From: Halalkalicoccus jeotgali B3
GTDB taxonomy: Archaea > Halobacteriota > Halobacteria > Halobacteriales > Halalkalicoccaceae
Direction of reading: 5' to 3'
Length of the DNA stretch: 64,000 nucleotides
Assembly (NCBI RefSeq): GCF_000196895.1
Contig: NC_014297.1
Coordinates: 992,001-1,056,000 of the forward strand
This document shows, piece by piece, positions 8,625 through 61,585 of this stretch (its first letter is position 1; each line of letters opens with the position of its first letter). The notes beneath the pieces are model-generated. The model was given only the letters and a program-made list of their open reading frames with translations. It was not told the origin of the DNA and did no database searches. The position numbers and the translations under genes are program-made.

Positions 8625-9389
8625 TCAGTCCTCCACGAGATCGTCGAATCCGAGATCGATGTTGGTCCAGTGATGCAGGATCGCGTCCCAGCCGGCGTCC
8701 TGGTAGTCGGCGAAGGCCTGCGATCCGGGCCCGGCACGACCGAGTTGCCACGAACACTCGGCTGTCAGCGGGACCTCTGGATCGTTGATGGCGTTCCAGT
8801 CGGCGATCTGTCGCCCTCGCTTGAGAGCGACGACGTCGTCCCCGGTCGGGTTGGCCGTGTCGCGAGTGATGAAGTACTGCTGGCCCTCGTGGACCGTTAC
8901 GTCAGGATAGATCGTCTGTCGACCTTCCTCGAGGGTGATCTCCCGAGTTGCGATCCGCGAGCCGACGTCGTAGGTCTCGCTGGCCTCGTAGTCCATCGCG
9001 AAGACCTCGAGTAGCATCGACCCCGCCTCGCGGGCGTGGACGTCTGCCCCGCGCCAGTGGGCGTCAGCCTCGGCGGTGACGACGATTCCCCACGCACCGA
9101 TCCCGTTGCCGTCACGAGTGGTGTGGAAGGCTTCGTCGTCGTGGCTCCCACTGGCGAGCGTCCGGGTGTGCGCAGGGCTGCTGACGAGCTGGAGCTCCTG
9201 TCGGGACTGGCGGATCTCCGCGAGTTCGTCCTCGAGTGCGGGTGTCGATCCGGCCCCCTCTCGGTTCGCGATCTCCTCGACGGTCGTACCGAGTTCGGCG
9301 ATCGCCGTTTCTGTTGACTCGACGCGCTCTGTGAGCGCCGCGAGGTCCTCATCAAGCTGTGCTCCGGTCTGCTGATAGTTCTCACTCAT
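8625..9389 (-). CDS. Tail-fibre accessory protein with N-terminal coiled coil
   Basis: 254 residues. Residues about 10-70 form a coiled coil (LDEDLAALTERVESTETAIAE and ALEDELAEIRQSRQELQ), the rest is a beta-rich domain (GAWGIVVTAEADAHWRG, GQQYFITRDTANPTGDDVVAL) ending AILHHWTNIDLGFDDLVED. Coiled coil plus beta head is the usual shape of trimeric fibre or fibre-tip proteins. It sits 3 bases before the interrupted fibre gene, so it is probably co-translated, and could be a fibre connector or chaperone. Confidence 0.68.
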   Translation of the reverse strand: MSENYQQTGAQLDEDLAALTERVESTETAIAELGTTVEEIANREGAGSTPALEDELAEIRQSRQELQLVSSPAHTRTLASGSHDDEAFHTTRDGNGIGAWGIVVTAEADAHWRGADVHAREAGSMLLEVFAMDYEASETYDVGSRIATREITLEEGRQTIYPDVTVHEGQQYFITRDTANPTGDDVVALKRGRQIADWNAINDPEVPLTAECSWQLGRAGPGSQAFADYQDAGWDAILHHWTNIDLGFDDLVED

Positions 9390-16099: not shown

Positions 16100-16117
16100 A
16101 TACGCTGATCACCTCTG

Positions 16118-16951: not shown

Positions 16952-16957
16952 CGTCGA

Positions 16958-18838: not shown

Positions 18839-20221
18839 TTACACCGTCTGGATCGTGATATTATCGGGCCCTGTCACGGCGAGTTCGGCGTCACCGATCG
18901 CCACTGAGGAGGTCCCCGTCGGAGAGGGGTCCGTTCCGATGTGGATGTAGTTGTACTCGTTCCAGCCCGGAACGGAGTCGTCGAGGATGTCCCCCAGTAT
19001 CCAGTGATAGTAGACGTCCTCACCGATCTCAGTCCCCCGATAGCGCTCGCCGTTTAGCTCCCCGCCGATCCGGCTGACGATGTTCTCGACGAGCTGGTCG
19101 ATCCCGTCGTACGGGAACTGGTCGGTCGTCTCTAACTCCGCGCTGACGTAGATCTGAATCTTCTCTGCAGGGTCGAACGCCAGCCCGTCGCCGTAGTCCT
19201 CGCCGGTCGCCTGCGTCGCGACGCCGCTGTACTCGCCGACTGACTGGATACCGCCAGCCCGCGTCTCGTAAATCGCCTGGATTACCTCATCACGTGCCGG
19301 CGGGGTATCCTCTTCGAGGGCGACGATCGGCCTGAACTGTCGACCCGAGTAGGTCCCGTCACCGTTGTCGACGATCGGGAGCTCCTCCTGGACGGTGACG
19401 CTCTGGACGATCTCGCCATTACCGCCGTTTCGAATCGACGCCTCGAGTGCGTCGACCGTCGCCCGGCCGCCGAACGCCAGGCTTGCCTCATATCGCCGGC
19501 GGAACTGCGTGTCGGTCTCGCGATCGCGACCGGATACGAAGTTGTACGGAGTGCCATCCGCGCGTTCGCCCGACCCGCCAGTCGGAAGTGGGTTCGTGAC
19601 CTCACCAACGCCGAGAATCGGATCGATAATGCGCTCGATCGTCCCCGCGTCGACGTTCGTCGCAGCGCCGATCTGGTCGTCGTCGAGATCCGCCGTCTGA
19701 TCGAGCGGGTCGACGGCCCGGATCGGGACCTGTCTGACTTCTGACTCGCCCTCGCGAAGCGTCACGGGCTCGGTCGTCTCGAAGATGATCTCCTCAGTCT
19801 CCTCGTCGGCGCGCGTCGCGACGCGCGTTCGGGCCTGGATCAGCCGATCGTTCGACACCGTGCCGTTGGCGGCGGTGAACGCCACCTCGCCGGTCGCCTC
19901 GCGGCGTTCGAGTCGGCGGAACCCAACGATCTCGAGAAGGTAGTCGAGTTGAGCATCCCGAGCATGCGAGTAGTATCCCGCATAATAGAGCGCCTCCAAG
20001 GTCTCGAAATAGGTGTACGTCCACAGCACCGCCATCTCGACGTACTGCAGCTCGGCCTCGGAGACGGCGGTGATCTGCTTGCCGAAGCGGTCCTCGGCTT
20101 CCCGGACGAACACTTCCCAGATGTGATCGACCGGAGGGCGCTGGAAGCCCTGCCGCGTAACGCCGTACTCACTGAAGAGGTCGGTGATTCCGAAGCCTTC
20201 GTTGTCAGGGATCGCGCTCAC
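18839..20221 (-). CDS. Baseplate J-like protein
   Basis: 460 residues. Baseplate J family of contractile tails: features FTAANGTVSNDRLIQARTRV, the central DLDDDQIGAATNVDAGTIERI (the characteristic GA-x-NV...I block), NPLPTGGSGERADG, and the conserved GRDRETDTQFRRRYEASLAF followed by SIRNGGNGEIVQSVTVQE. Forms the outer wedge of the baseplate. Its start overlaps the stop of the gp25-like gene (ATGA-type). Contractile tail assignment rests partly on this gene. Confidence 0.9.
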   Translation of the reverse strand: MSAIPDNEGFGITDLFSEYGVTRQGFQRPPVDHIWEVFVREAEDRFGKQITAVSEAELQYVEMAVLWTYTYFETLEALYYAGYYSHARDAQLDYLLEIVGFRRLERREATGEVAFTAANGTVSNDRLIQARTRVATRADEETEEIIFETTEPVTLREGESEVRQVPIRAVDPLDQTADLDDDQIGAATNVDAGTIERIIDPILGVGEVTNPLPTGGSGERADGTPYNFVSGRDRETDTQFRRRYEASLAFGGRATVDALEASIRNGGNGEIVQSVTVQEELPIVDNGDGTYSGRQFRPIVALEEDTPPARDEVIQAIYETRAGGIQSVGEYSGVATQATGEDYGDGLAFDPAEKIQIYVSAELETTDQFPYDGIDQLVENIVSRIGGELNGERYRGTEIGEDVYYHWILGDILDDSVPGWNEYNYIHIGTDPSPTGTSSVAIGDAELAVTGPDNITIQTV

Positions 20222-42174: not shown

Positions 42175-43788
42175 TTAAAACCCGATGCTGTAGACCCGCG
42201 TTTCCTTTTTCTGCCCGCCTTCGTCGTCGCTGAAGTTTCTGAGGCCGATCTCCGCAGCGTCTAACATGTCATCATGGTCAGCAGATGGGAACGCAACGAA
42301 CTCGTCCTCGAAGCCATCCCAGATCGGGAGTTGCTTGCCCCGCTTGCGAAGTGGGTCGACGATCTTCACATCGCCCGACTCGAACATCGGCGACATGCTG
42401 ATGATCCGGTCTTCTTTGTTACCCGAGCTATGACTCGTTTCAAGCGGGAGACCGTGTTTTTCGCGGCCCTGTTGGGTGAACCAACTCTGAGCCTGATTGC
42501 TCTCGACGAGGCATTTTACAACCCGATTATAGTCCGAGAGATGACCGTCGACCCACTCAAGCGCTTGTGTGAGCGTCATGCCTCGCTTGCGAGCCATATC
42601 CTCAAGGTAGATCGCTTCTGTCGAGATGTCCTGGGCGTAGATCGACAGCGCGAAGTAGTCCGTGTTATTTGACGCCGCCTTCTCCGGGTCCTTCTCCGTT
42701 GCGAGGTCGAGCCCAGCATACCGGACGTAATCGGACTGGCGGCCGGGGAGGGCCGCCGTCCAGTGGAGCATGTCCGACGAGAGGACGGCGCCCGTCAGTG
42801 CGCTCGCGTCGTTCTGCATCTCCCGCTTCCACACCAGCCGGCTCTCGTCACGCCCGAACCCAGTGTGGAGGTCCAAGAGCAGCTCGTCGAGCGGCCAGCG
42901 CTCAGGCCACAGGACGGGGCACTGTCGGTGTGGGTCGGCCTCGATGATCGTTTCGTTCGGACCGCGAGCGCCAATTTCCGACGCGTTGTAGCGACGACGC
43001 TGTCCCGTCTCATCGTCGATCGTGATGAGATCGTACTCCCCGTTCTCGACGATAGACCAGTCTTCGATCGCCTGCTCGACGGTCGTGTTCCACCCGCCGG
43101 CGTCGATCAGGTTCTGGTAGATGTCCTTCGAGTGCTTGCGCGTCCCCAACGTGAGGAACACCGTCTCGTCGCTTGCCCGGAGACGGAGGTGTGCAAGGAA
43201 GTCCTCCTCGATCGTCTTGCGGCGATGGGCCGTCCGTTGGGCCGCCTGGTCGACGATGTCGTCGAAGATGATGTAGTCGTAGCGCCCACCCGTAACGCCC
43301 GTATCGAACCCAGCGGCGCGGATCGTCGGCTCGGCATGGTCAGCATCGCGCTCGAGTGTGAGACGAGTCTTGTTGGATTCAATGATGTTGTGGCCGTACT
43401 TCGGGGCAAGCGCCTCGAGATATCCCTTACACTTCTGGAGCTTGCCCTTCGCTTCCTCCGTGTTCAACATCATGATCAGGATCCGAACGTTCGGATCCTG
43501 TAACGCCTTCCAGACTGGAGTGACGCCCGATCCCGACTCCGATTTGGCGTGTCCACGCGGCTCGATCCGGGCGAGTGTCTTCGGCGCGTCGGGGTGATTG
43601 TCCGAAAAGGCTCGATGGATCGCCCCGTAGATTTCCCGAACGTGCGGCGGGGGGCTCTGCTCGTGGCCGAATACCTCCGACTCGCGAATGGCCAGCGTCA
43701 GTGGGTGGGCAAGGGGCTTGTTCCGGACGAGGTGCTCGAGAATCTCGCGATCGGACTCCCCGAGCGGGGACTGTGCTGTCGTACTCAT
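42175..43788 (-). CDS. Terminase large subunit (packaging ATPase/nuclease)
   Basis: 537 residues. ATPase: Walker A region PRGHAKSESGSGVTPVWKAL (about 78-97), Walker B YDYIIFDDIVDQAAQR (170-185), and coupling motif FLTLGTRKHSKDIYQNLID. Nuclease: YVRYAGLDLATEKDPEKAA (first acidic site, about 355), CLVESNQAQSWFTQQG, and DDMLDAAEIGLRNF (last acidic site). Powers genome packaging at the portal. Overlaps the small zinc gene start by one base and precedes the portal. The Walker A lysine lies in an atypical GHAKSE context, as in T4-like and haloviral TerL. Confidence 0.93.
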   Translation of the reverse strand: MSTTAQSPLGESDREILEHLVRNKPLAHPLTLAIRESEVFGHEQSPPPHVREIYGAIHRAFSDNHPDAPKTLARIEPRGHAKSESGSGVTPVWKALQDPNVRILIMMLNTEEAKGKLQKCKGYLEALAPKYGHNIIESNKTRLTLERDADHAEPTIRAAGFDTGVTGGRYDYIIFDDIVDQAAQRTAHRRKTIEEDFLAHLRLRASDETVFLTLGTRKHSKDIYQNLIDAGGWNTTVEQAIEDWSIVENGEYDLITIDDETGQRRRYNASEIGARGPNETIIEADPHRQCPVLWPERWPLDELLLDLHTGFGRDESRLVWKREMQNDASALTGAVLSSDMLHWTAALPGRQSDYVRYAGLDLATEKDPEKAASNNTDYFALSIYAQDISTEAIYLEDMARKRGMTLTQALEWVDGHLSDYNRVVKCLVESNQAQSWFTQQGREKHGLPLETSHSSGNKEDRIISMSPMFESGDVKIVDPLRKRGKQLPIWDGFEDEFVAFPSADHDDMLDAAEIGLRNFSDDEGGQKKETRVYSIGF

Positions 43789-48636: not shown

Positions 48637-48843
48637 ATGTCCGATATTAAAGAGCGGTTGTTAGATGTGATGGTCGTCTGTGAACCCTACTCAACGCGCG
48701 AACTAGCCCAAGAGGTCGGCGAGCCACGACGGACGGTCCTCTACAACCTCGAGCAGCTCGCCGACGATGGGGAAATAAATCGGAAGCAAAGTTCAAAGCG
48801 GGATGTGTCCTGGTGGATCGGGGTTGAGGCGGGACAAGGATGA
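48637..48843 (+). CDS. Winged-helix regulator, likely binds adjacent palindromes
   Basis: 68 residues from ATG 48637 (the TTG at 48589 lies within an operator; ATG at 48613 also possible). MSDIKERLLDVMVVCEPYST, RELAQEVGEPRRTVLYNLEQ, LADDGEINRKQSSKRDVSWW form a compact winged helix with a clear recognition helix (EPRRTVLYNLEQL). The stop overlaps the lipoprotein start by 4 bases (ATGA), so the two are one transcript. Palindromic operators immediately upstream make autorepression the simplest reading. Confidence 0.8.
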   Translation: MSDIKERLLDVMVVCEPYSTRELAQEVGEPRRTVLYNLEQLADDGEINRKQSSKRDVSWWIGVEAGQG

Positions 48844-49454
48844 ACCGTCGACAGTACCTCAAGACAGGCGGTGCAACGGGCCTCGCCCTCGGGACGGCGG
48901 GCTGTCTCGGGTGGCTTCCGTGGCGCGATGATAGTGATCAGAAGCAAGTCCAAGAGGGCGCGCCCAGTGAAGGAAGTGACGAGCCCACGGAGAACGATAC
49001 CTCTCCAGAGACAGACGAGCAGTCTGCAACCGGCGAGAAAGAGGAGGATAAGCGGACAGAGGCCGAAAACGAATCCGAGGGCGAACGGAATCCCCTCCCA
49101 GACGAGAATGATACTGAGATCGATCGAGAACAGTACAATGAGAGTGAAGAACGCGACGTAACGGAACTCGACGAATCATCCGTCTCCGTCGTAACTGATG
49201 CAACAGTTGACGATAGCGGGAGTGTAACTGTCCAGATTAAGGTGACAAATACGACCGACGCGACGATTGATGGCGTCGATCTCGAAGTCATATATCTCGA
49301 TAGTGCGGGTAAGGAGATCGGGTTGGACTTGAAAGTCGTTCAGGGGCTCGGGCCGAGAGGAACAGAGTCCGTCGAAGCTCGTGCAAGCCCAGTCGATCTG
49401 CGTGGAGATATCGCAGAAGTGAGCGTAACCCCGACGCCACAGAACTACTCGTAA
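48840..49454 (+). CDS. Tat-exported lipoprotein with FxLyD-type domain
   Basis: 204 residues. Signal: RR at 3-4 (MNRRQYLKTGGATGLALG), lipobox ending TAGC with the lipid-carrying Cys22. Then a long disordered acidic linker (DEPTENDTSPETDEQSATGE) and a C-terminal beta domain from about residue 118 (SVSVVTDATVDDSGSVTVQI, KVTNTTDATIDGVDLEVIYL) of the FxLyD/DUF3426 type seen in haloarchaeal lipoproteins. Anchored outside the membrane. Co-transcribed with the regulator, so its production is controlled; function unknown, perhaps exclusion or signalling. Confidence 0.85.
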   Translation: MNRRQYLKTGGATGLALGTAGCLGWLPWRDDSDQKQVQEGAPSEGSDEPTENDTSPETDEQSATGEKEEDKRTEAENESEGERNPLPDENDTEIDREQYNESEERDVTELDESSVSVVTDATVDDSGSVTVQIKVTNTTDATIDGVDLEVIYLDSAGKEIGLDLKVVQGLGPRGTESVEARASPVDLRGDIAEVSVTPTPQNYS

Positions 49455-49456
49455 CC

Positions 49457-50665
49457 CTATGGGATCTGTTGGACGGCCTCGAACGGGTTCGCCCACTGGT
49501 TGCCCGATGAATAGATGTTGACGAACCCATGTTCGTCGCGCGTATAGCGCGATGGGACACCACTCTGTTCGATTCCTGCACCAATTCCGGGGTGCGAACA
49601 CCGGTTGTCCTCGAAGTAAAAGCCGTCGAGTGGGACGCCGCGAATCCGAGCGTGGGGAGTTCCACCGCCCTGATTGTGGTTGATGAAGGGGAGATCTGGA
49701 ACTCGCTTGGCGAGGATATCACTCCCGCGGACGAGCATCGTCCCCCCTGCTCGTTGCTCCCAGTTCGAATCGGACGGGTCCGACGACCCACTCTCGTTTT
49801 CCCCAACACGGTGCATATCAAGTGGATGCGAGCTGGTCCACGGCCCGATCGTCGACTCAAGAACGTAGTAGTTCGCGTCGGCATGGCCCGACCCACACAT
49901 TGCGTGACGAGCGGCATCAAGGTATGATTTATAAACAGTCACATCGCCGTGACGAATGTCGACACAGTAGCCGTATGATGTCATCATTGTGTTGTGGACG
50001 TGACTGTACGCGACAATTGCGTTCGAAACCGCCCCCTCACCCCCGACAGCAATCCCTTGTACTGAGAAGGCCCACACTTCGGAGTTGTCCACACGGCAGT
50101 TGTCGCCCTGGATGTGAATACCGCGGGCGAACCGTGCCTCGCGCCATCGCTCGCGCTCAGCTTCGCTCCCTGGAGCGAACGGGAAGTACCCTGGTATCGC
50201 CTGATGCTCTGTAACACTCGTATGCGGTCCACGGATCTCGACGCCCGTGATGCGTGCATTATCCTCCATCCGGATGAGGCCAGTTCCATTCGAGCCGCCA
50301 GCCCATGCAGGCGACGAGGTGCCTTCATCTTCTGTGAGGATCGTCGCTCCACCAGTAGACGATGACCGACCCGAGGCGATCGTAACGTCCGTGACGGTAA
50401 GGGTCGTACCGGAAAAGTCGTAGAGGTTCTCCGACGGGAGCCAAACGACCCGCCCGTCGTTTTGCGAGGCGTGGTGCTTGAGTTGCTCGACAGTATCGGC
50501 CTGCACGTCCGCGTCCCCGGGCTGGATGTCTTGAAGGGCGGGGACGCCACCACTCGGCAGCCGACCCGCACCAGGACCGTTATACTCAACAGTACAACCC
50601 GCCACGCCCACCACCGCCGCTCCGGCAAGCCCGGTGAGGAATTGGCGCCGGGTGGTCGGGTTCAT
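49457..50665 (-). CDS. Tat lipoprotein with beta-helix domain related to tail fibre
   Basis: 402 residues. Twin-arginine signal with RRQFLTGLAGAAVVGVAGCT; lipobox Cys at position 24, so it is anchored on the cell surface. The rest is a right-handed beta-helix: VTDVTIASGRSSSTGGATIL, GLIRMEDNARITGVEIRGPH, CRVDNSEVWAFSVQGIAVGG. The region DAARHAMCGSGHADANYYVL then PLDMHRVGENESGSSD matches the interrupted virus fibre at 7357 (RHA..G.GH.D and P.DMH...EN, same order and spacing). Starts 60 bases from a 40-bp promoter element shared with the secretion operon. Convergent with the lipoprotein at 48840, two bases apart. Likely surface adhesin. Confidence 0.85.
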   Translation of the reverse strand: MNPTTRRQFLTGLAGAAVVGVAGCTVEYNGPGAGRLPSGGVPALQDIQPGDADVQADTVEQLKHHASQNDGRVVWLPSENLYDFSGTTLTVTDVTIASGRSSSTGGATILTEDEGTSSPAWAGGSNGTGLIRMEDNARITGVEIRGPHTSVTEHQAIPGYFPFAPGSEAERERWREARFARGIHIQGDNCRVDNSEVWAFSVQGIAVGGEGAVSNAIVAYSHVHNTMMTSYGYCVDIRHGDVTVYKSYLDAARHAMCGSGHADANYYVLESTIGPWTSSHPLDMHRVGENESGSSDPSDSNWEQRAGGTMLVRGSDILAKRVPDLPFINHNQGGGTPHARIRGVPLDGFYFEDNRCSHPGIGAGIEQSGVPSRYTRDEHGFVNIYSSGNQWANPFEAVQQIP

Positions 50666-50752: not shown

Positions 50753-53599
50753 TTACTCGAGCCGGGATTCTAGATCGGCGAACTTATCCCCGATAGACCC
50801 ACCCGAGCCGGAGGCTGTTGTCTCATCGTCCGGTGCATCCTCAGCAGCACTATCCGCGGTGTCGTCTCCATCCTCAACCAGGGACGTAGGCGTGTACCGC
50901 AGAGGTTCCTCACTCGCCGACAGGAGATCCTCAGTATCCGCCAGATCGCCAAGGTCGTCGAAGGGGACGGCCTCGCCGTGATGGATGAGCGAAAGGTCCG
51001 CTGCCCGTGTCGTCCCTTCAGGAACGATTACGACGGCCCAGTGTTCCCGTGAGAGAGATGGCTCGGGCACGAGTTCGGTCGGTGCCCCAACCGCGACGTA
51101 CTCCTCGCGTTCGGGATCGCCTTCTTCAAAGTCGGATTCGCGAGCGGGATACTTCCCAATGGCACCCGATGAGTCGATGTCTTCGCGTGTTTTGAACGAC
51201 GCTATCGACGTCCCGTCAGTGTCCTCGAGCACCCAGTGATATCCGTCGTCCGGGTCGGGATCGTACCACCACACCGCGTTTCCGCCCTTGACGCGGAGCA
51301 TGGGCTCGCCGTCGACTGTGACTGTTCCGAGATTGTACGAGCGCCGACGCCCGTTCTCGTCGACCTCGCGGCAGTACATCGGATCGGTGAGCGTATCGTA
51401 GACCTTCCATGCTTTCTCGGGACGGGCGGCGTAGAGACATCGTTCGCCGTCCTCGATGGCGTCGTGGAGGTGGCGAAGGGTCTGTCCGGGGCTGGACTCG
51501 CCGGTCGAGTCTTCGAGCTCCACGCGGACGTTCTTGCCTCCTGAGAGGGCAGCGAGTTCGGGGTTCTCCTCCATGAACCGTTCGCGGGCCTGGCGTGAAT
51601 CTTCCGGGGTGACGATGTCCCACGAAACGGCATCCTTGAAGGCCCGCTCGATCGACGCGAACCCGTCGCTGGATCGGCCGATGGTCTGTTGCTCGATCTC
51701 GGTGTCGAAGCCTGCGTCAGTGAGGGCGTCGTAGAGTTCCTTGATCGCTTTGCGGTGGTCGCCCTTGCCGTCAACGGGCGAACCGCTGATCTTCTTGAAG
51801 AGAGTGATGCCACGGGACGTCGTCTTGAGTTTGACCTCACCGTCGCGCTTCTCTCGCTCAACGAGGTCGTCGCCGACCATGTCGAGGACACCCCACACCT
51901 GGGACTCGTGGCCGAGGTCTTCGCGATCGACGCCCAGATTATCGATGAGGCGGTGTTGGATTAGATCGGCAGAGACAAAGCCGTCATCATCACCGTGCTC
52001 GATCGCGACGTCATGGACTGTCTTACAGGTCTGGCGTTCGACACGGTCAAGGTCGATGTCAGCGACGGCCATCGACTTTCGGTTCCCGCTATCGTCGAGG
52101 ATCGCACCGGCCCCGTCGAGCTGCCCGTCGCCGCGATTGAGGAGTAGCTCGTCCATGAGTTGCTGGTCGGACTTTGGCTCATGTCCGTCTCGGCGGACGA
52201 TCCGCTCGATATGGTGGTCGGCTTCGGTTTGAGTGATCGTTGGCGGGAATGGCGGGAGTGCGTAGACACGGTATGGGTCCGGCGGCCCGACCGAAGTCTT
52301 CATCCAGACATGATATTCCTCTTCGTCGCGGAGTGTTTCCCACTTGAGTCCAAGATTTTTCCCGACGACCTTGCAGGCGTCGGCTGAGCCGACGGAGAAG
52401 GACATCTTCGTATCGCACTGGCTGAAGAGTGCTCCGACGATCTCAGGCGGGAGTTGATCGGGATACTGGCAACAGAGGAATAAACAGAGCCGCGAGGTCC
52501 GCGCCTTCGAGAGCATCGTCGGGAGTGAGGACCCCTCATGAGCCAGCAGATCAGCTTCGTCCATAAGGAGATGGAAGTTATCCGGGCCGCTCCCTCGCGA
52601 GCTCTTATCACCATCCCGGTCGCGTGCGGCGGCCCACGTCCGGCGGAGGATGGCCGTCCCAACCATCTCTTTGATACCCTCGTCCTCTTTGTTCATCCGC
52701 ACGATGAGGATCTTGCCCTCGTCAATCACCTCTTGAAGGTTGATCGTATTGCCCCGGTGGGCGAACACGCGCCTCGCGATGGGGTTCTCAACCCAGTTTT
52801 TGAAGCGCCTGCGGATCGCGTCCAGGTCGTCATCATCGTACTCGGCGAGCTTATCGGCGAACAGCGCGAGGAAGATGTGGCCCGATGCGTTGACCATGTC
52901 CCTGTAGCGCTCGCGGTTCTCCTGATCCGCGAGGATGAAGTACAGGTCGATCATCGTGAACTCGGCGTCGTGGCGAGCGGCGAATCGGATGATGTTCTCC
53001 GCGATCGCGTCCATCAGCGGCCCCCAGTAATTACTCGCGCCGAGCATCTGCACCAGGTCGTTAAGGATATTCTCGACGATTAGTTCAAATTCGGGGTGGT
53101 CCGGGGAAACGCCAGGGTCGAGGAAGTTGAACCCGGTCTGGGCAGACCGAGTGCCGGCGGGCTCAAGCCATACGACGTCGCCTTTCCGGTGGTCGGGGAG
53201 GATGGAGTAGAACCGTTTTGCACCGTCGCCTTTGGGTTCGATATAAATCATGCCGTCGCCGGACTCGGCGATCGTCCGGCCGGCATTCATCATGAGGTTC
53301 GACTTCCCATAGCCCGTGCTCCCGAAGAGGACAGTGTGCTGGCGAAGGTCCGTCTGGTCGATTGAGGCGTGGCCACCGCGACGCGTTCCGACGCCGACTG
53401 CGATGGGGCTCTCGGCGTCAGCTCGCGGCGACCGCATCATCTGACGGGCGAGATACCCGGCAAAGACCTGCTCGTTGCTGTGTTCGTCGGTTCCATGTGA
53501 CCGGAGCGTCTCATTCCCTTCGACGGCCTCGGTCGACTCCTCTTCCCAGATGTAGAGGCCGTCATCAGGGCTCAAGGGTTGTGTTGGGGCAGCCGCCAC
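50753..53599 (-). CDS. VirD4/TraG-type coupling ATPase
   Basis: 948 residues. RecA-like motor: Walker A LFGSTGYGKSNLMMNAGRT (93-100), then MIYIEPKGDGAKRFYSILPD, and Walker B NFHLLMDEADLLAHEGSSLP with SKARTSRLCLFLCCQYPDQL (the sensor typical of VirD4/HerA-like ATPases). A C-terminal region of about 500 residues carries a winged-helix-like part and further alpha/beta domains unique to archaeal versions. Couples DNA substrate to the secretion channel, or acts as a packaging-like ATPase. Its start overlaps the stop of the 365-residue partner by one base. Confidence 0.85.
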   Translation of the reverse strand: MAAAPTQPLSPDDGLYIWEEESTEAVEGNETLRSHGTDEHSNEQVFAGYLARQMMRSPRADAESPIAVGVGTRRGGHASIDQTDLRQHTVLFGSTGYGKSNLMMNAGRTIAESGDGMIYIEPKGDGAKRFYSILPDHRKGDVVWLEPAGTRSAQTGFNFLDPGVSPDHPEFELIVENILNDLVQMLGASNYWGPLMDAIAENIIRFAARHDAEFTMIDLYFILADQENRERYRDMVNASGHIFLALFADKLAEYDDDDLDAIRRRFKNWVENPIARRVFAHRGNTINLQEVIDEGKILIVRMNKEDEGIKEMVGTAILRRTWAAARDRDGDKSSRGSGPDNFHLLMDEADLLAHEGSSLPTMLSKARTSRLCLFLCCQYPDQLPPEIVGALFSQCDTKMSFSVGSADACKVVGKNLGLKWETLRDEEEYHVWMKTSVGPPDPYRVYALPPFPPTITQTEADHHIERIVRRDGHEPKSDQQLMDELLLNRGDGQLDGAGAILDDSGNRKSMAVADIDLDRVERQTCKTVHDVAIEHGDDDGFVSADLIQHRLIDNLGVDREDLGHESQVWGVLDMVGDDLVEREKRDGEVKLKTTSRGITLFKKISGSPVDGKGDHRKAIKELYDALTDAGFDTEIEQQTIGRSSDGFASIERAFKDAVSWDIVTPEDSRQARERFMEENPELAALSGGKNVRVELEDSTGESSPGQTLRHLHDAIEDGERCLYAARPEKAWKVYDTLTDPMYCREVDENGRRRSYNLGTVTVDGEPMLRVKGGNAVWWYDPDPDDGYHWVLEDTDGTSIASFKTREDIDSSGAIGKYPARESDFEEGDPEREEYVAVGAPTELVPEPSLSREHWAVVIVPEGTTRAADLSLIHHGEAVPFDDLGDLADTEDLLSASEEPLRYTPTSLVEDGDDTADSAAEDAPDDETTASGSGGSIGDKFADLESRLE

Positions 53600-54696
53600 T
53601 AGTCCGCCACCTCTGGTTCAGAATCGCCGAGGTCGAGATTGGAATGGAACGTGTGGCTTTCCCGCGGGACGCCAGGGCCCGACTCGCGAGTCGCCCACTT
53701 CACGTCGGGGACCTCAATTGACCCGTTCGGAAGGTGGAAGAGCCCTTCCCATTCTTGGATCGTGAATGCGTTCGACGTTCCGTGGAGGAAGCGGCCGACG
53801 GGCGAGCGTTTCCGAACGCGCCGCCGGACGAGATCTTCAGCCTCGTTTATATTGCCAGTGTGCTTGAAGTATGTCGGTCGAAGTTTCTGCTTGTTGGCGT
53901 AGTCGTATTTTGAGAAGGACTTAGCGGCCTTTTCAAGAGCGGTTTGGACATCCGATTTATCAGGGCCGATCGCCATGAGACGGATACTGGTTCGAAACGT
54001 CTCATCGGAGACCTGCTTTTGCATATCTTTCGCGAGGTCTTCGTTGAGGTCAGACTTCACGACCTTTGTCGTCTCTTGGCGCAAGCCGATTGAAAGCGTG
54101 CCCTGTCGGGTCGAATCGGCGATTCGATCACCGTCGCCGCCGATCCGTCCGCGCTTGTACCACTTGCTCGAGATGGGTTTGCCACAGCCCTGAACAATCA
54201 GTCGGACATCATTCTCGTTGACGAACTTCGGGAGTGTCGACGAATACGGGTCGCCATCCAATGGATCACCGGTCGAGTCGCGGAAAGATATCGGGTGGAT
54301 GGCGTCGAGTTGTGGTTCGACGCGGCAGGTAAACACCCACTCGCCGACCTTGGCATCGGGGAGTGGGTCTTGGTACGTCTCCATCCGGCTGTTGGCGTAC
54401 TTAGAGTTGATCAACGACTGGATGTCGCTAAGGTCCTCGTCGGCAGCAGTGATCTGGGCAGTCAATTGATCTCGGAACCACCATTCGAAACTGAAGGTCC
54501 CGCCTTTTCGACCAGTGCCGACAGTGTTATAGATATCTTCAAGGAAGTCTGCGCCGCCGCTCATACCAGCAGTATCGACATAGGGCCGCACCTCTAAGCG
54601 GTTCGGATGTTCGATTTCGTGATAGAGCCGATCGATGCGATCCTCGAGAAGTTTCGTCGGTTTACCACCCCAAGAGACCCAGGAAAGGATGCTCAT
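53599..54696 (-). CDS. Coupling-protein partner (N-terminal domain, split VirD4-like)
   Basis: 365 residues. Features KLLEDRIDRLYHEIEHPNRL, RKGGTFSFEWWFRDQLTAQI, SDIQSLINSKYANSRMETYQ and DAKVGEWVFTCRVEPQLDAI. From memory this resembles the separate N-terminal domain of archaeal VirD4-like proteins. Mainly alpha/beta, no transmembrane helix. It is translated just before the coupling ATPase (one-base overlap), suggesting they form one complex. Exact family name uncertain. Confidence 0.65.
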   Translation of the reverse strand: MSILSWVSWGGKPTKLLEDRIDRLYHEIEHPNRLEVRPYVDTAGMSGGADFLEDIYNTVGTGRKGGTFSFEWWFRDQLTAQITAADEDLSDIQSLINSKYANSRMETYQDPLPDAKVGEWVFTCRVEPQLDAIHPISFRDSTGDPLDGDPYSSTLPKFVNENDVRLIVQGCGKPISSKWYKRGRIGGDGDRIADSTRQGTLSIGLRQETTKVVKSDLNEDLAKDMQKQVSDETFRTSIRLMAIGPDKSDVQTALEKAAKSFSKYDYANKQKLRPTYFKHTGNINEAEDLVRRRVRKRSPVGRFLHGTSNAFTIQEWEGLFHLPNGSIEVPDVKWATRESGPGVPRESHTFHSNLDLGDSEPEVAD

Positions 54697-55700
54697 TCGT
54701 CGCCACCCCTGCTGTGCTGGAGTAGTTCCCAGTTAGGCCCGAGGTCGTACCACTTGCGTGCGAAGAGGTAGGCCGGGATGGAGATGATTGGTAGAAGTGC
54801 ACCCACTGTAACGCCCACTACGAGCGATGCGATACCTGTAGCGACGCTCATTCGAAGGACGAACAGTTCGCGGTCGTAGCGGGGGACCCAGTCGACTCGG
54901 GAGCAGCACCGATCAGCACGAACGGCAGTCTCGAGGTTTGTAAACCCAATAATGCCGCTTGCGATGTACATCGAGAGCCCCAGCGCAAACTGCCCGCTGG
55001 TCGATGCGAGTGGCACCGTCAGAGCCCCACCAACGAGCCCTGCGCTGGCGATCGCGAGAACGGACCACGGGCCATCCGAGAAATTAAATTCCTGAACAGT
55101 CGTCCCACGATGATCATTTTTCTCGCGTTCGTGGAGGTGAAGCCAGTAGCTCCCCACGAGTAAGATCGTGCCTGCGAGGACAATAGCGGAGATATTAGCA
55201 GTGTCGAGGTAGTTCAGGGTCGGAACAAGTCCAGATGTGAATGCAGTCATGATCGTGGTGAGGGCAGTAGCAGCGAAGAGGAGGACGATACCAGCGGCAG
55301 CTCGTCGAGCGAATAGTGTCTTAACAGGTCCACGGCTGACCCAGTGAATCACCTCATCAAGACGGGTGTTGATCTGTTGGTCACGGCGATTCTGTCGAAC
55401 GCGCATCTCCCACTCTTCGGTCCCGTGACAGTCGAGGCAGACGAGGGCATGGCTCTCGTCAGAGAAATCAACCTCATCGAGGTCGACGATGATCCAATCG
55501 CCGAGAGAAGTACCGTCGACAACCGTCCCGCAGCACTCGCAAGTCGAGCTGGCATTCCCGATCGTTCGGAGGATGACGCTTAGGTCATAGTCGTGTGGCG
55601 GCGTCGCTGTGGGGCTATCCCCGTCCGTCTCACCAGCACCATCCGAACTATTTTGAGTTGTCACGTTGGAATTTGTTCCAGTAGACATATTATTAAGCAT
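54693..55700 (-). CDS. Multi-pass membrane protein of the secretion operon with zinc knuckle
   Basis: 335 residues from ATG 55698-55700 (55688 also possible), overlapping VirB4 end by 8. N-terminal TCECCGTVVDGTSLGDWIIV and HALVCLDCHGTEEWEMRV make a CxxC...CxxC zinc site; then five hydrophobic helices (AGIVLLFAATALTTI, ISAIVLAGTILLVGS, VLAIASAGLVGGALT, ALGLSMYIASGIIGF, TGIASLVVGVTVGAL). Conserved position between VirB4 and coupling proteins suggests a channel component, but no recognised family. Confidence 0.65.
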   Translation of the reverse strand: MLNNMSTGTNSNVTTQNSSDGAGETDGDSPTATPPHDYDLSVILRTIGNASSTCECCGTVVDGTSLGDWIIVDLDEVDFSDESHALVCLDCHGTEEWEMRVRQNRRDQQINTRLDEVIHWVSRGPVKTLFARRAAAGIVLLFAATALTTIMTAFTSGLVPTLNYLDTANISAIVLAGTILLVGSYWLHLHEREKNDHRGTTVQEFNFSDGPWSVLAIASAGLVGGALTVPLASTSGQFALGLSMYIASGIIGFTNLETAVRADRCCSRVDWVPRYDRELFVLRMSVATGIASLVVGVTVGALLPIISIPAYLFARKWYDLGPNWELLQHSRGGDE

Positions 55701-57645
55701 TATCACCACCTCCATTGTCAGACGGATCCTTGCCGAGTTTGAGCAGTTCCTCCGCTAACGGTTTGATCTTTACCGGGTACGTCCCGTGGTCGTCGATATC
55801 AGCTAAACAGTGTGAATATCCCCGCTTTGGCGTCCCTTTGTTCATCTTCCGGGCGAAGGCGCACTCGTTCTCAGTGAGGCCCAGCTTCTCGCCATACTCG
55901 TCGAAGTGGATGCCCGGTTCTTTGTGAATAAACTTGTGTGACGTAAGGTTCGCAAGCGTCTCGGCCTTCGGATGGATAAAGAAGTCCTGAGCCTGCTGGG
56001 TGATCATATGCAACGAGATGTCGAAGTGTCGGGAGTGGCGGACAATCTTTTCGAGCCACTCGAGACTGTTTGGCGTCTCAAACAGCCGGTGGATCTCGTC
56101 GATGGCAATGACCATGCGTTTGTCCGACGCCTTAGCGCGCTGGTAGATCACGTTGAATGGAGCCTGGAGTCGGAGGGCCTTCTCCCGATCTGAACCGCCC
56201 TGTTGCACGTCGATTAGCGTGGACTTGCCTGAGAGGTCAATGTTCGAGCGGCGCCCCAGATTGGCAAAGTTTCCACCCTCGAACGAGTCCATCGCCATGT
56301 GAAGGTCCGCAGCAGCGTCTTCCCATTTCTCGGAATCGCGAACGTTCGATGCGCGATCGTCACTCGAGAAGTTGTACTCGCCATCTGGCGTTCGGGCGAA
56401 GAATCCCTCGGCATCGTCGGCGATCATGCCAAGCGTCTCGCGGAGATCGAGCGGTGCTGGACTCGGATTTGAGTGGGTCTTCGGATCTTCGTTGATCTCC
56501 ATCCGGTAGGCGGTCTTGCGGATCCCTTTCTGCAGAACCGTCCACTCGTCTCGTGTGAGACCGCCGTCAGAGCCGCCGGCCTGCGAGAAGAACGTCTCAA
56601 ACCACCCCAGCGTCGTCGATGCCCAATGGTTGAACGGGTTGAGTCCCTCTTCCTCAACAACGTGAATGGGCGTTGGCTGGATCTCCATCGGGTTGACAGC
56701 GTTCTCACCACCGAGAGGGAGGCGCTTTGCTCCAGTTTCATGGGCGAGTTTGTCGAGGCCGTTGACCGGGTCAATCATCACGAGGATGGTGTCGGGATCC
56801 ATCGCAAGCCGTCGAAGCAACATCATCATCGTCCCAAAAGACTTGCCTGACCCGAGGTCGCCGATAGTGAGTGCGTTGTAGCCCCCCTCACGATTCCAGC
56901 GGTCGAAGGCGAACGGCTCGTCAGTAACCGCGTGGTACCCGATCAAGACACCATCGGGCTCGTAAAGCGTACTCGCAGAAAACGGGAACATCGCACCAAC
57001 GGCATCCCCAAGCATCTTTCCCGACGCACCACCGAGCATGTCCTTCGCGATCGGGGACGTGCTTGTTAGTGCGTCGTCGCTCTGGTAGTCGATCGTTCGG
57101 ATCGATATATCGTTCTTGTTGAGCTCGTCAGTGATCGAGCGTGCCTCGTTAGTGACGACATCTCTCGACTTGCCTCGAATGCGAATGTAAACGCCGACAT
57201 CCCAGAGTTTCTGTGACCCCGTCTTGAGTTCATCGCGGATGAACTGGTGCTCTGCGATCTGCTGTTTTGTGAGGCCGATATCCGGATCCTCTTGTTTCTG
57301 CTGCTGGCGGAGTTTGACTTTGAGCTTCTGAATCGACCGGTCGATCTTCTGGACCATCTGCTGACTGTCAGCCGGATTGAAGTGAATGACGGGTTCGACA
57401 GCCGTGTTGGGGTGCGTATTGATCAGGTCAATGATTCCCGGTTCGATCTTCGAGGGCATCGACGTGATACAGAGGTGCTTGATCCAGTCTTCGCCAGACC
57501 GGCACCCGCCTAGTTCGTAGGCGACCGACGACGGGCCGACAGCACGCGCTTGGTGTTCTCGGGCCTCATCGACGGACCCAGTGTCCGCACTCGTGTCGAA
57601 CTTGTCCGATACTTTTTCCTTCAGGTGTGCGATTTTTCCACTCAT
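55693..57645 (-). CDS. virB4: VirB4-type conjugation ATPase
   Basis: 650 residues. N-terminal VirB4 part with FNPADSQQMVQKIDRSIQKL and DVGVYIRIRGKSRDVVTNEA; central linker PFSASTLYEPDGVLIGYHAV; motor with Walker A ALTIGDLGSGKSFGTMMMLL (262-269), the segment MDPDTILVMIDPVNGLDKLA, and Walker B MVIAIDEIHRLFETPNSLEW followed by SRHFDISLHMITQQAQDFFI. This is the signature ATPase of type IV secretion systems. It is preceded by a gene encoding a PrgI/VirB4-N-like protein with 1-base gap. Confident as the energy source; whether it drives DNA transfer or pilus/other export is unknown. Confidence 0.93.
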   Translation of the reverse strand: MSGKIAHLKEKVSDKFDTSADTGSVDEAREHQARAVGPSSVAYELGGCRSGEDWIKHLCITSMPSKIEPGIIDLINTHPNTAVEPVIHFNPADSQQMVQKIDRSIQKLKVKLRQQQKQEDPDIGLTKQQIAEHQFIRDELKTGSQKLWDVGVYIRIRGKSRDVVTNEARSITDELNKNDISIRTIDYQSDDALTSTSPIAKDMLGGASGKMLGDAVGAMFPFSASTLYEPDGVLIGYHAVTDEPFAFDRWNREGGYNALTIGDLGSGKSFGTMMMLLRRLAMDPDTILVMIDPVNGLDKLAHETGAKRLPLGGENAVNPMEIQPTPIHVVEEEGLNPFNHWASTTLGWFETFFSQAGGSDGGLTRDEWTVLQKGIRKTAYRMEINEDPKTHSNPSPAPLDLRETLGMIADDAEGFFARTPDGEYNFSSDDRASNVRDSEKWEDAAADLHMAMDSFEGGNFANLGRRSNIDLSGKSTLIDVQQGGSDREKALRLQAPFNVIYQRAKASDKRMVIAIDEIHRLFETPNSLEWLEKIVRHSRHFDISLHMITQQAQDFFIHPKAETLANLTSHKFIHKEPGIHFDEYGEKLGLTENECAFARKMNKGTPKRGYSHCLADIDDHGTYPVKIKPLAEELLKLGKDPSDNGGGDNA

Positions 57646-57646
57646 A

Positions 57647-59086
57647 TTAACTCATTGCCTCTTTTGTCTCCGCATCTGCATCCGCGGCCTCCGTTGCTGT
57701 GTCCGACTGCTCCATCTCCTCGACAAGGGCCGCAGCAGCCTCTTCTATCGAATCATACTCTTTGCCAAGACTCGCCTCATCGGGCGCGGTCGATCCAGGC
57801 GATTCATCCGAGAGTTCCGGTTCGGAAGCAGTACCGAGATCTTCGTCGACGTTGTCTTCCGGGACGTCTTCAATGGTGCCAGCAGACCGCTGTAGATCGG
57901 AGATGATCTGCTGATCGAGTTCGTCATCGGCCAACTGGTCGGGCGAACGCATGTCGCCCTGCGTTTCCGTATATTCGCGAGACATCGTGACCAGCGGGAG
58001 TGAACGGTCGTCCCGTTCTTCAGTTACGACGCGCTCGCCGGTCCACGACTCCTCGAGGACGCTAATCAAGTCGTCCATTGAGAGTTGGTCCGCATCGCAA
58101 CCAGTGATGCCCGCGAGATTTTTCTTGAGAGAGTTCCGTCGACCATTCATGACCTGCTCTTGTCGATAGCGAATCTCTGGGACAGTGAGATCCCTCGAGG
58201 CCAGCAATGAAGCGATTGTGGAGCCGACCAGAGGAAACTCGTCCAGACGGCCGAGGACCCGGTGGCCCTGCATTTGGACCTCCTCCATCGTGACCGGAGC
58301 AAGCATCTGGAAGCCGCGAATGCTGGCGTTCTTCGACTCCATCTGATTTGAGAGGTTGTCCTTGTACATCGAAACGTTCTGCTGGAGATTCGGGTTACTC
58401 CGGACATCCGTGTCCCCCAGTCGATCGCCGAATTTTCGCTTAACACCCTCAGTATCGATTTTAACCGAGCCGTTTCGGAGTTCTCCCGAGTGGCTGAGGG
58501 AATTGACGATGTCCCCGAGCTCGTCGGCGGCAGTCTCCCAGTCGGCCTGTGTGGCAAGCGAGAGTTCGGCAGGATCAATACTCACACCACCAACCAGAGC
58601 GCCATCGAATCGCCACACAGCATCGGATTGTGGTGCAAACCCATCGACACGGGTGAGATCCTCCAAGGCACGACGATCGCCGTTAGTCGAGATACTGTCC
58701 TTCGTGATCCGTCCCGAGTCGCCCCTGTGTGCCGACCGGTAATCAGACCCGAATTTGAACCCCTTCTTGCACTTCAACCATTTGTAGAAGGACATCCCCG
58801 GTGGCGATACGTAGATGCCGACGACGACGGTTCCGATGAGGAGTGTCGACATACCGAGGGCGAGGAGTGCCCAGTTGCGGCCGTCGGGGACGACGTTGCC
58901 GACGATGAGGAACGTCATCAGCGACCCGAACAAAAGAAGGATGTCCGAGAACGCGATGTCTGTATCGGTAAAGTCCATTACCCCCATCGTCCCGAGCGAG
59001 TCGAGATTCCGACGGGTGGCGTTCTTCTTCCCGTGGAGCGATTCAACCAAATCTTCGATTTGTGTTTGTTCCGAGTTGCTTGCCAT
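57647..59086 (-). CDS. PrgI/VirB3-like plus VirB4 N-domain-like protein
   Basis: 479 residues from ATG 59084-59086. Two hydrophobic helices near the start (SDILLLFGSLMTFLIVGNVV, LLALGMSTLLIGTVVVGIYV) match VirB3/PrgI topology; the remainder FDGALVGGVSIDPAELSLAT, ELGDIVNSLSHSGELRNGSV, LAPVTMEEVQMQGHRVLGRL resembles the N-terminal half of VirB4 proteins, suggesting that VirB4 is split over two genes. Ends in an acidic tail. The long open frame upstream of 59086 is basic antisense-like and rejected. Confidence 0.72.
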   Translation of the reverse strand: MASNSEQTQIEDLVESLHGKKNATRRNLDSLGTMGVMDFTDTDIAFSDILLLFGSLMTFLIVGNVVPDGRNWALLALGMSTLLIGTVVVGIYVSPPGMSFYKWLKCKKGFKFGSDYRSAHRGDSGRITKDSISTNGDRRALEDLTRVDGFAPQSDAVWRFDGALVGGVSIDPAELSLATQADWETAADELGDIVNSLSHSGELRNGSVKIDTEGVKRKFGDRLGDTDVRSNPNLQQNVSMYKDNLSNQMESKNASIRGFQMLAPVTMEEVQMQGHRVLGRLDEFPLVGSTIASLLASRDLTVPEIRYRQEQVMNGRRNSLKKNLAGITGCDADQLSMDDLISVLEESWTGERVVTEERDDRSLPLVTMSREYTETQGDMRSPDQLADDELDQQIISDLQRSAGTIEDVPEDNVDEDLGTASEPELSDESPGSTAPDEASLGKEYDSIEEAAAALVEEMEQSDTATEAADADAETKEAMS

Positions 59087-59087
59087 A

Positions 59088-61046
59088 TTAGATCCCTCGT
59101 GCGTTATCAACAGTCGACCGACTCTCTGCATTCTGTTCAGCTTCCGAAAGGCCGAGGCCATGATTATCTGACTCTGCGACTTCCGAGACATCGTAGAACT
59201 GCTGGTCGTTCTCTCCACGAACGAACAAGTCGCGTTCGCCGTAGGCATCGTCCACTCGCTTGAACGTCTCTCCAGTAACCATCTCCGACGATCGGGGGAC
59301 ATTGAGCATCTTCTGGAACTCGATGTCGGTTCCCGGACCGCTGCCGGTGAAGTACCCTGCACGATACTTCTGGTCGCCGGGCAGATCGTCCGGAGAAGTG
59401 ACCGTCGTAATCGACGGATCATCCACAGAGACACGTCCCTCGGGAGAGTCCCGCACAGTAGCACCAGACGAGGTCCCCGACGAGGAGTGGCTTGCACTCG
59501 CGCTAGCGGACGGCCCTGACGACGGGCTAGGTCCAGATCCACCAGGAAGAGCTGTCCCCGACGGATTCGTTCCAGTAGATGCTCCCGCAGACGTGGGTGC
59601 GCTTGCGCCCGTGTCAGCGGATGCGAGGTCAGAGCCACCCGTAGAGAGTCCCGACGAGGACGAACCAGAACCGAGCGCCCCGCCCGTCCCCGAGCCGCCA
59701 CTGCCGAGTGCGTGCCCATTGACTGCGTTGCTGATACCGCCAGCAGCTGCCGACGTGCCAGACCCAGCAGCCCCACCAGCGGCGGCACCAGCTCCAGCAG
59801 CGCTACCACCGCCGAGTCGGCCAAGCGCACTCGAGATCGCGCCAAGGCCGACCGATCCGGCGATGATGGCACCGGCACCAGCACCGACCCGCTTGAACCA
59901 GAACAAGTATATCGACGAGATGAACGCCAAGAGCCAGATCACGATGATTGCGACTGCGCTCACAGGGACAGCGCCCCACTCTGCAGGCCCCGGCAGGAGG
60001 TTCTCGATCGCACCGAGAACCGAGTATCCCACTGAGAGGACGACAACCGCGGGTAATGGGAAAAACGCCGCGGAGGGGAATAACTCGAGGACGCCTTCGA
60101 ACGCTTCGGCGACACCCTTCATGATCCACACCTTCGGCACGCTCATGGCGATCAGTATCGGCATGGCTGGGAAGATGACATAGAGAAACAGCCAGGTCAC
60201 GAAGAACGTGAATGCCATCGCGAGGGCGAACGCGCCACCGAACGCATAGAATAGGAGGATGCTGATTCCGGCCGCGGCATTGTTCGCAGCGATCGAGGAT
60301 GTATCGGGAGCAATCGTGCTCGGATCAAGTGGAACGGCGTTCATCGCGAACGACGCTGCAAAGAGGATGATCGTTCCGAGCGCCCACGAAAACGGGATGA
60401 GAAGCAGCTTGATCCATGCCTCTTGCTGGGCGATCTTGATCTGCTGGTAGGTCGGCGTCGGCGGCCATACCATCCCCAGGATATACAGAACGAGGGTCAT
60501 GATGAGCCAGATCGCCGCCCCTGCGACTAAACTGACGCCGTACCAATACTCGTACAGGATAGACATCAGGTCTCCATCGGGTTCGCCACTGACGGCGACC
60601 GAGCCATCCTGCATCGGATAGACCGTACTCGACTGGAGTGCCTCGGCCATCGAGACGAGGAGGTCAGTCCCGAACGTGAACCACGGCTCGAAGAAACTGA
60701 TGAGGAGCCCGACGGGATCGATCGATATCGGGAAGATTCCACTGTCATCATTCTCCTCTGGTCGGTAGGTGTCCGAACCGCCGCCCGTCGCGTTTTCAGA
60801 CTCGCTTTCTGAATCATTCACAGCATCCCCGCCCTGTGGAGTAGGGTTCGATGGGACCGAGTCGACGCGATCAGAGGCCGAACTATTACCACTCGCGTTT
60901 GGGCTCTCGACGCCCGTCGTCTCATTGGATTGGGCCACGACAGGCCCAGCCCCAACCATAACTACAGCCCCGACACTCATCGAGATGAGAAGAACAACCA
61001 GCAGGGCAGAGAGTGTCGCGTTGGTCTGTCGGGGACGGGTTATCAT
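59088..61046 (-). CDS. VirB6/TrbL-like polytopic channel protein
   Basis: 652 residues from ATG 61044-61046. An N-terminal signal (TLSALLVVLLISMSVGAVVM), a disordered polar linker, and six to seven membrane helices (ISFFEPWFTFGTDLLVSM, SLVAGAAIWLIMTLVLYI, LLLIPFSWALGTIILFAA, GFAFALAMAFTFF-like region, LFLYVIFPAMPILIAMSV, PAVVVLSVGYSVLGAI, VSAVAIIVIWLLAFIS). The tail is rich in Gly/Ser/Ala with repeats before a small C-terminal domain (GDQKYRAGYFTGSGPGTDIE). This topology is that of VirB6/TrbL inner channel proteins. Confidence 0.78.
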   Translation of the reverse strand: MITRPRQTNATLSALLVVLLISMSVGAVVMVGAGPVVAQSNETTGVESPNASGNSSASDRVDSVPSNPTPQGGDAVNDSESESENATGGGSDTYRPEENDDSGIFPISIDPVGLLISFFEPWFTFGTDLLVSMAEALQSSTVYPMQDGSVAVSGEPDGDLMSILYEYWYGVSLVAGAAIWLIMTLVLYILGMVWPPTPTYQQIKIAQQEAWIKLLLIPFSWALGTIILFAASFAMNAVPLDPSTIAPDTSSIAANNAAAGISILLFYAFGGAFALAMAFTFFVTWLFLYVIFPAMPILIAMSVPKVWIMKGVAEAFEGVLELFPSAAFFPLPAVVVLSVGYSVLGAIENLLPGPAEWGAVPVSAVAIIVIWLLAFISSIYLFWFKRVGAGAGAIIAGSVGLGAISSALGRLGGGSAAGAGAAAGGAAGSGTSAAAGGISNAVNGHALGSGGSGTGGALGSGSSSSGLSTGGSDLASADTGASAPTSAGASTGTNPSGTALPGGSGPSPSSGPSASASASHSSSGTSSGATVRDSPEGRVSVDDPSITTVTSPDDLPGDQKYRAGYFTGSGPGTDIEFQKMLNVPRSSEMVTGETFKRVDDAYGERDLFVRGENDQQFYDVSEVAESDNHGLGLSEAEQNAESRSTVDNARGI

Positions 61047-61066: not shown

Positions 61067-61585
61067 TTAGAGAATGCCGAGCCCACCAGTAACGCACTCG
61101 GCAAATGTGAAGCCGAACACGTCGCCGAAGACCATCTGGATTAAGGTCGGGGCGAGGAGTGCAACGCCGAGTCCCATGAACCCACGCTTGGCCCAGTTGA
61201 TGTCGCCCTCGAGCTTACCCGGTGTTTTGTGTATCGCGTAGGACATGCCGGCAACGATCAAGACGCCAAGGCAGACGACGAAGCCGATACGTTGGAGCAT
61301 CGGAAGGCCATTGGCTGCTGCCTGCTGTGTGATCGTGGAACAACCTTCGCCACCAACATCCTGTGACTGAGCCAAGACAGTCCCGACGGAGAACATGTAC
61401 GCAGTGATCCCGATTAAGGCGTAGATCGCCATGTCGGCCGCCATGGAGCGTGTCTCGTGAAGGGCATACTTCAGCCGACTCGATTCTTCGCGATCAAGTG
61501 GGTTCGTTCGTGAGCGTGCGATTCGGCCCGCCAGGCCGGACATCGCAGGTTCGTCGTCATCGGTACAGGACGTATCTGAGTCCAT
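61067..61585 (-). CDS. Small three-helix membrane protein, VirB2-pilin-like
   Basis: 172 residues. Polar N-terminus (DSDTSCTDDDEPAMSG), then a first hydrophobic region MAIYALIGITAYMFSVGTVL, a loop GGEGCSTITQQAAANGLPML with one Cys, and two more helices IGFVVCLGVLIVAGMSYAIH and FMGLGVALLAPTLIQMVFGD ending AECVTGGLGIL with a second Cys, perhaps disulphide-linked outside. First gene of the secretion operon; position and two-helix hydrophobic core resemble VirB2 pilins, but archaeal identity is not firm. Confidence 0.6.
   Translation of the reverse strand: MDSDTSCTDDDEPAMSGLAGRIARSRTNPLDREESSRLKYALHETRSMAADMAIYALIGITAYMFSVGTVLAQSQDVGGEGCSTITQQAAANGLPMLQRIGFVVCLGVLIVAGMSYAIHKTPGKLEGDINWAKRGFMGLGVALLAPTLIQMVFGDVFGFTFAECVTGGLGIL

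Follow-up and report, generated by a model that had tools for sequence, protein, structure and literature searches.

The beta-helix Tat lipoprotein encoded on the minus strand at 49457..50665 (402 aa, MNPTTRRQFLTGLAGAAVVGVAGCTVEYNG) of the window, i.e., of the whole 64,000-nucleotide stretch of Halalkalicoccus jeotgali B3 DNA that was analysed, has in our estimate an even chance of being the module with which a haloarchaeal conjugation (T4SS) element performs recognition at the cell surface, that is, an exchangeable mating adhesin that recognises, and possibly processes, glycans. We consider a glycan-recognition role the best explanation because it joins the homology with a virion protein, the lipid anchoring, the fixed position in the transfer cluster and the exchange of the domain between clusters. 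The swapping suggests that this domain decides to which cells the clusters attach.

The lipoprotein, its fold and its invariant residues

The protein was assigned from its ORF, BLASTP, a motif alignment, a structure model and NCBIfam, where a TAT signal model scores above cut-off; Tat signal models are also the only curated Pfam or NCBIfam entries that its sequence matches. About residues 1-38 (50552..50665, minus strand) comprise a Tat leader, a lipobox (VAGC) and a linker, and about residues 41-396 (49478..50545, minus strand) form the beta-helix body, which is the exchangeable part according to the model, the identities and the trees. The RR motif and the lipobox cysteine are both present (RRQFL..VAGC), and a leader of this type is found in the aligned Halalkalicoccus T4SS-linked copies (the L049 start being extended upstream); in the same alignment it is missing from the viral copies and from the chromosomal two-gene copies. 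A small second Tat lipoprotein with an FxLYD domain, recognised by synteny and NCBIfam, is the convergent neighbour (48840..49454, plus strand).

The single-chain AlphaFold model of the lipoprotein is a right-handed beta-helix (pLDDT 81.8, pTM 0.84). Foldseek against the PDB returned carbohydrate-active beta-helices and tailspikes with E from 5.8e-5 and TM of about 0.3-0.45, a similarity at fold level only; the top matches comprise epimerases, esterases, lyases and tailspike depolymerases, and on the viral side tailspikes and pectate-lyase-like proteins were matched. The best PDB match by sequence, a K1 capsule depolymerase, reaches only E 0.075, and Pfam Beta_helix is above cut-off in distant relatives. 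Residues R253, H254, Y266, D283, M284 and H285, plus Y233, are invariant in 40/40 aligned distant relatives, mostly bacterial, and are kept in nearly all copies of the family; the relatives were fetched with patterns from around residues 193-200 and 224-233, which biases Y233 but not the other six. By DSSP of the model, several of the invariant residues occupy equivalent strand positions in consecutive coils. The R253-H254/D283-M284-H285 segment (49811..49909, minus strand) together with Y233 looks like a putative binding or active-site face.

Since R-H and D-M-H are invariant in free-standing secreted bacterial relatives as well, an enzyme fits these residues as well as an adhesin does, and an enzymatic role is for this reason the strongest rival. 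Such an enzyme, acting on glycans as a lyase, epimerase or hydrolase, would locally open the S-layer or EPS of donor or recipient for the T4SS channel, with binding being only a part of catalysis. Both the invariance of Y233, R253-H254, Y266 and D283-M284-H285, several of which are stacked in consecutive coils, and the enzymes among the PDB fold matches are in its favour, although no Pfam or NCBIfam catalytic family is matched by sequence, a fold match does not prove catalysis, and the unrelated family that can substitute for the lipoprotein need not share such an activity; on balance we regard it as somewhat unlikely.

The transfer cluster and exchange of the domain

The lipoprotein gene adjoins a T4SS cluster on the same minus strand of the window. 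It encodes a VirD4/TraD-like coupling ATPase (50753..53599; Pfam TrwB_AAD_bind 3.5e-5, above cut-off), two conserved T4SS-cluster proteins identified by synteny (53599..54696 and 54693..55664), a VirB4-like conjugal transfer ATPase (55693..57645; NF045971 4.8e-41, under that model's own cut-off), a protein with homologues in other haloarchaeal T4SS clusters (57647..59086), a membrane protein with homologues in other clusters that is VirB6/TrbL-like by position only (59088..60980) and a pilin-like small membrane protein (61067..61444; T4SS_pilin 4.3e-5, just under cut-off). VirB4/VirD4 homology indicates that this transfer locus is probably a conjugation element. As a side observation, VirB4 has about 650 aa in the window and in L043 (704 aa in L128), and the gene upstream of it is a separate one (window 55693-59086); the other clusters of the genus mostly have one VirB4 protein of about 1030-1190 aa.

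A VirB4 search of the genus, set against the positions of the lipoprotein family, gave 14 judged T4SS clusters (G003 C85, where the cluster fills a short contig, was left out of the count, as was a second, partial match to VirB4 on G005 C99), and in all 14 a beta-helix lipoprotein lies about 2.5-6.5 kb from VirB4. Twelve of the 14 carry the family of the window lipoprotein, hereafter the first family (five in G000, of which those on C3 and C5 score alike, one in G001, G002 C17, G005 C15, C37, C78 and C99, and G006 C6), and in two (G002 C23 and G004 C10) the same place is taken by a Tat lipoprotein from a beta-helix family unrelated to it. By chance about 0.4 of 14 would be estimated to fall within 8 kb (about 46 family matches in about 25 Mb), a figure that serves for orientation and should not be read as a probability, as the clusters are interrelated. 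The mating-adhesin role, which the initial annotation had named as a possibility, gains support from this constant link with either the family or its substitute. The lipoprotein form also occurs in clusters on plasmids and in relatives that lack the window provirus. In one genome (G000), matching T4SS and beta-helix modules were seen on a 363-kb replicon and a 44-kb plasmid (L035 and L036, C3 and C5).

The unrelated family was followed further. Among the neighbours of 20 other haloarchaeal T4SS loci, pectate-lyase-like proteins that are mutually 38-59% identical were found at L128, L136 and L139, and another beta-helix protein at L137; profile comparison detected no homology between this second family and the first (probability 2.5%). 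Among 295 genomes, second-family matches stronger than 1e-95 are mostly about 8-10 kb from VirD4 or adjoin VirB4/TrbL-like genes, as judged from the context of part of the matches, with exceptions seen at L168, L169, L170 and L172; matches below about 1e-66 (frames of 500-600 aa) were set aside. Outside the genus, divergent members of the first family adjoin VirB4/TrbL-like genes in Actinarchaeum, and one is on a Halocatena plasmid with VirD4 about 29 kb off. The tree splits these members from the Halalkalicoccus clade, implying that the first family became associated with T4SS at least twice. Its profile found no member in the 20 other haloarchaeal T4SS loci, and at most other haloarchaeal T4SS clusters examined, some of them partial regions, no beta-helix neighbour was recognisable, which means that the beta-helix is not a universal T4SS part. 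At L141 an 873-aa repeat protein (14737-17358, PQQ-like by eye) sits in the beta-helix place near the T4SS and is possibly another surface module.

Comparison of clusters shows that leader and body have different relatives. Between the window and L043, VirB4 is 87% and VirD4 80% identical and the lipoprotein leader 66%, whereas the body is only 33% identical; the window body is nearer to that of L034 (49%), whose VirB4 is distant. Likewise, L049 and L161 share 82% identity in VirB4 and 84% in the leader, and yet the L161 beta-helix belongs to the other family, while L049 and L035 are 71% identical in the body and 68% in the small neighbouring lipoprotein with a VirB4 identity of 37%. The L049 DNA has its junction between 10543 and 10555, where leader and linker end, and a relative of the FxLYD lipoprotein (48840..49454 in the window) was exchanged there along with the beta-helix. 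In the VirB4 tree the window and L043 are united (100/100) and a group of L049, L035 and L037 is rejected (AU p 4e-47); in the beta-helix tree the latter three are united (100/99) and window plus L043 is rejected (AU p 2e-7). The groupings for the AU tests came from the identity tables, so these p-values are supportive and not blind. Judged from these sequences, L049 arose by recombination at the boundary of leader and beta-helix, and the beta-helix is swapped independently of the transfer machine, with the leader travelling with the T4SS.

A possible mating mechanism and known surface factors

If the lipoprotein is a mating adhesin, the Tat pathway would export the folded beta-helix domain, the lipid would anchor it outside the donor membrane, and the domain may bind a surface glycan of the partner cell, either the S-layer N-glycan or exopolysaccharide, which it may also trim with the invariant Y/RH/DMH face. 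The glycan grip would hold the mating pair during DNA transfer by the T4SS, and domain swapping would alter the recipient range, by analogy with the receptor-binding tips of phages and the TraN tips of F-like plasmids.

Variants of the TraN tip set recipient specificity in F-like plasmids, where TraN proteins stabilise mating pairs (PMC9246713). Like the lipoprotein, TraN is a donor-surface protein encoded by the element beside its T4SS, with a variable recognition part, a constant remainder and variants inferred to set the recipient range (PMC9246713). Unlike it, TraN resides in the outer membrane and has a beta-hairpin tip, while here a single lipid-anchored beta-helix is exchanged as a whole domain in an archaeon, and no TraN model in Pfam or NCBIfam matches. 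The LPxTG wall-anchored conjugation adhesins of Gram-positive bacteria are comparable in that a surface-anchored adhesin replaces a long pilus for mating (PMC12857230), but they have other folds and are anchored by sortase, not as Tat lipoproteins. Archaeal conjugative plasmids (the pNOB8 family, pT33-3) and Ced/Ted DNA import share VirB4/VirD4-type ATPases with the cluster (PMC12857230, PMC9905601). In its archaeal section, a T4SS review from 2025 names VirB4/VirD4 and mentions there no mating adhesin or surface recognition factor, no haloarchaeal system and no beta-helix lipoproteins (PMC12857230), and two articles report no recognisable relaxase or oriT in archaeal conjugative plasmids (PMC12857230, PMC9905601). 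Open-access titles and abstracts on archaeal and haloarchaeal conjugation, its surface factors and beta-helix mating adhesins, and on proviruses and virus receptors, contained no description of a beta-helix mating adhesin, which is weak evidence. For the choice of mating partner in archaea, a constant leader with a swappable domain of tailspike fold in a fixed place of the cluster offers a concrete candidate. If it is an adhesin, the TraN principle would extend to archaea via an unrelated protein and conjugation range would be tied to virus adsorption; the natural swaps between window and L043 and between L049 and L161 are ready-made comparisons.

Exclusion factors would be expected to be swapped as well, and this counts against the adhesin reading. 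A surface-exclusion lipoprotein in a TraT-like role would keep carriers from receiving the same element; as here, TraT is plasmid-encoded in a transfer region, and an element-encoded surface lipoprotein that adjoins transfer genes, diversifies and is swapped is what exclusion groups would be expected to yield. However, the Pfam TraT model does not match the window lipoprotein, the homology with a virion fibre, whose task is attachment, favours outward recognition, and the swapped unit moves apart from the transfer apparatus, to which an exclusion protein would presumably be matched. We therefore consider exclusion unlikely.

Chromosomal and viral relatives

A whole-genome search found about a dozen distinct copies of the family in this Halalkalicoccus genome. 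The family is present in 7/7 genomes of the genus and, at E<=1e-12, in at least 13 of 295 haloarchaeal genomes, the best six candidates per genome being scored; bacteria and methanogens hold distant relatives at about 25% identity. A family ubiquitous on haloarchaeal chromosomes without a link to mobile elements, which would have refuted the proposal of the initial annotation, is not what was found, the lipoprotein form being tied to T4SS clusters.

Three display formats can be distinguished. In the T4SS-linked format, a Tat signal and lipobox are fused to the beta-helix; in the viral one, a signal-less beta-helix is preceded by a gene whose product has a coiled-coil N-terminus (window 8625-9389; L048 10563-11261); and in the chromosomal two-gene unit, the gene ahead of a signal-less beta-helix encodes a protein of about 220 aa with a Tat signal. 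The chromosomal Tat proteins are 43-45% identical to the L048 viral stalk, the L048 and window stalks are 25% identical, and the homology of the chromosomal Tat protein to the viral stalk is in its C-terminal domain. By these alignments, one stalk domain carries either the viral anchor or the cellular signal peptide. The unsignalled chromosomal beta-helix would exit the cell bound to its Tat-tagged partner. One fold would in this way reach virions by the coiled-coil stalk gene and the host surface by the Tat-tagged version of the stalk. At L040 (G000:C1:640067-641061) a chromosomal unit has decayed: its beta-helix is truncated, and what remains of the stalk contains an in-frame stop.

That many chromosomal copies have no T4SS nearby would suit a general surface protein carried as plasmid cargo without a transfer role, but we find this quite improbable given the constant position in 14/14 judged clusters, the two or more separate associations of the first family plus one of the unrelated family, and the retention of the leader while the domain is replaced.

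The mating-adhesin reading draws on the viral relative within the window. This proviral fibre is encoded on the minus strand in two frames, an N-terminal one (8103..8621) and a C-terminal one (7357..8268) that holds the beta-helix, the motifs and a C-terminal helix (BLASTP, alignment and model). A single frame shift lies near 8350, as family members align to the first frame until about there and then to the second. A programmed frameshift was considered; by eye there is no obvious slippery sequence near 8350, and the shift was treated as decay or error. Lipoprotein and fibre match in BLASTP with E 3e-20 (31% identity over 158 aa), and the fibre locus is recovered at 1.4e-17 in the whole-genome search queried with the lipoprotein. 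All three motifs are shared in order, namely ARHAMCGSGHAD / TRHAITGFGHPD, HPLDMHRVGEN / TPIDMHNLDEN and ARIRGVP / GIRGHP (lipoprotein / fibre), and the single-chain model of the fibre fragment is likewise a right-handed beta-helix (pLDDT 71.8) with its elements in equal order, including the short helix after DMH, so the ordered motifs and beta-helix noted initially are confirmed. Foldseek with this truncated, lower-confidence fibre model returned nothing at or below 1e-3.

The special pairing of the two proteins that had been proposed holds as far as homology; they are, however, two of about a dozen genome copies, and since the motifs (GY, RH, DMH) are invariant in bacterial relatives, they are a superfamily-wide signature and do not tie these two genes to each other in particular. 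The idea of fibre and lipoprotein as a dedicated pair was dropped because of the tree, in which the Halalkalicoccus T4SS copies neighbour the fibre of L048 (94/87, a node that is not starred) and the fibre of the window has a long branch at another place. The lipoprotein might have the same target as the virus, but lipoprotein and fibre are only about 31% identical and not nearest relatives in the tree.

The fibre belongs to a tailed provirus, since a Baseplate J-like wedge protein (18839..20221; phrog_6 4.2e-35, Baseplate_J 1.4e-9) and the terminase large subunit (42175..43788; phrog_38 2.7e-68) are in the same minus-strand region. It lies at the end of the late region, preceded by the stalk gene (8625..9389, minus strand; 8.6e-71, its own protein being a row of the query alignment), whose product has a coiled coil and a domain with homology to the Tat stalk proteins of the chromosome. 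With the fibre in a tailed provirus and the lipoprotein bearing a Tat lipobox, the suggestion that one copy is displayed on the virion and the other on the cell is strengthened. A second provirus with a family fibre, L048 in G004, has capsid-region genes in common with the window provirus. The family was found neither in annotated phages nor in IMG/VR, whether searched with the beta-helix or with the stalk, so the viral form is known here from proviruses only. Phage tailspikes and tail fibres (P22-like, Fri1 gp49, HFTV1) have a right-handed beta-helix too, and the fibre copy is likewise in a late region; the window lipoprotein differs in being cell-anchored and not encoded in a tail or late region, and the similarity is at fold level only. 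The beta-helix tail fibre of the haloarchaeal virus HFTV1 was suggested by its authors to bind S-layer glycan (PMC12494034). It is possible, though doubtful, that conjugation elements and tailed viruses of haloarchaea draw recognition domains from a common beta-helix pool, with the lipid-anchored, exchanged cassette setting the recipient species and virus host range and mating range evolving from the same parts.

That the lipoprotein serves as a decoy or excludes superinfection by the co-resident virus, also proposed initially, would accord with the common fold and the location of both genes on one chromosome stretch, but it is highly improbable and without specific support, as the identity is only about 31%, the lipoprotein is not sister to the fibre, and an L043-type T4SS cluster with its lipoprotein is present in G001, where the window provirus terminase, found among the genus genomes in G000 only, was not detected.

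Several further features of the provirus were observed. A tyrosine integrase (Phage_integrase 8.5e-12) adjoins the 3' end of secY (G000:C1; L188, window, L186), and a direct repeat of 17 bp, ATGCGCCAGATGTTCGG, occurs at -6366 and 70601 in window numbering. These suggest that provirus and T4SS may be parts of one integrated element of ~77 kb (-6366 to about 70617), or of two in tandem, the 17-bp match being modest evidence. The provirus late region also encodes an Asparagine-synthase/QueC-like domain protein (window 10434-12044), and a proviral tail-region protein of L048 (15629-17932), related to window 12091-13875, has a twin-arginine-like leader (TTRRSFFGVLGAAAGAVGYLFG), which is odd for a virion protein.
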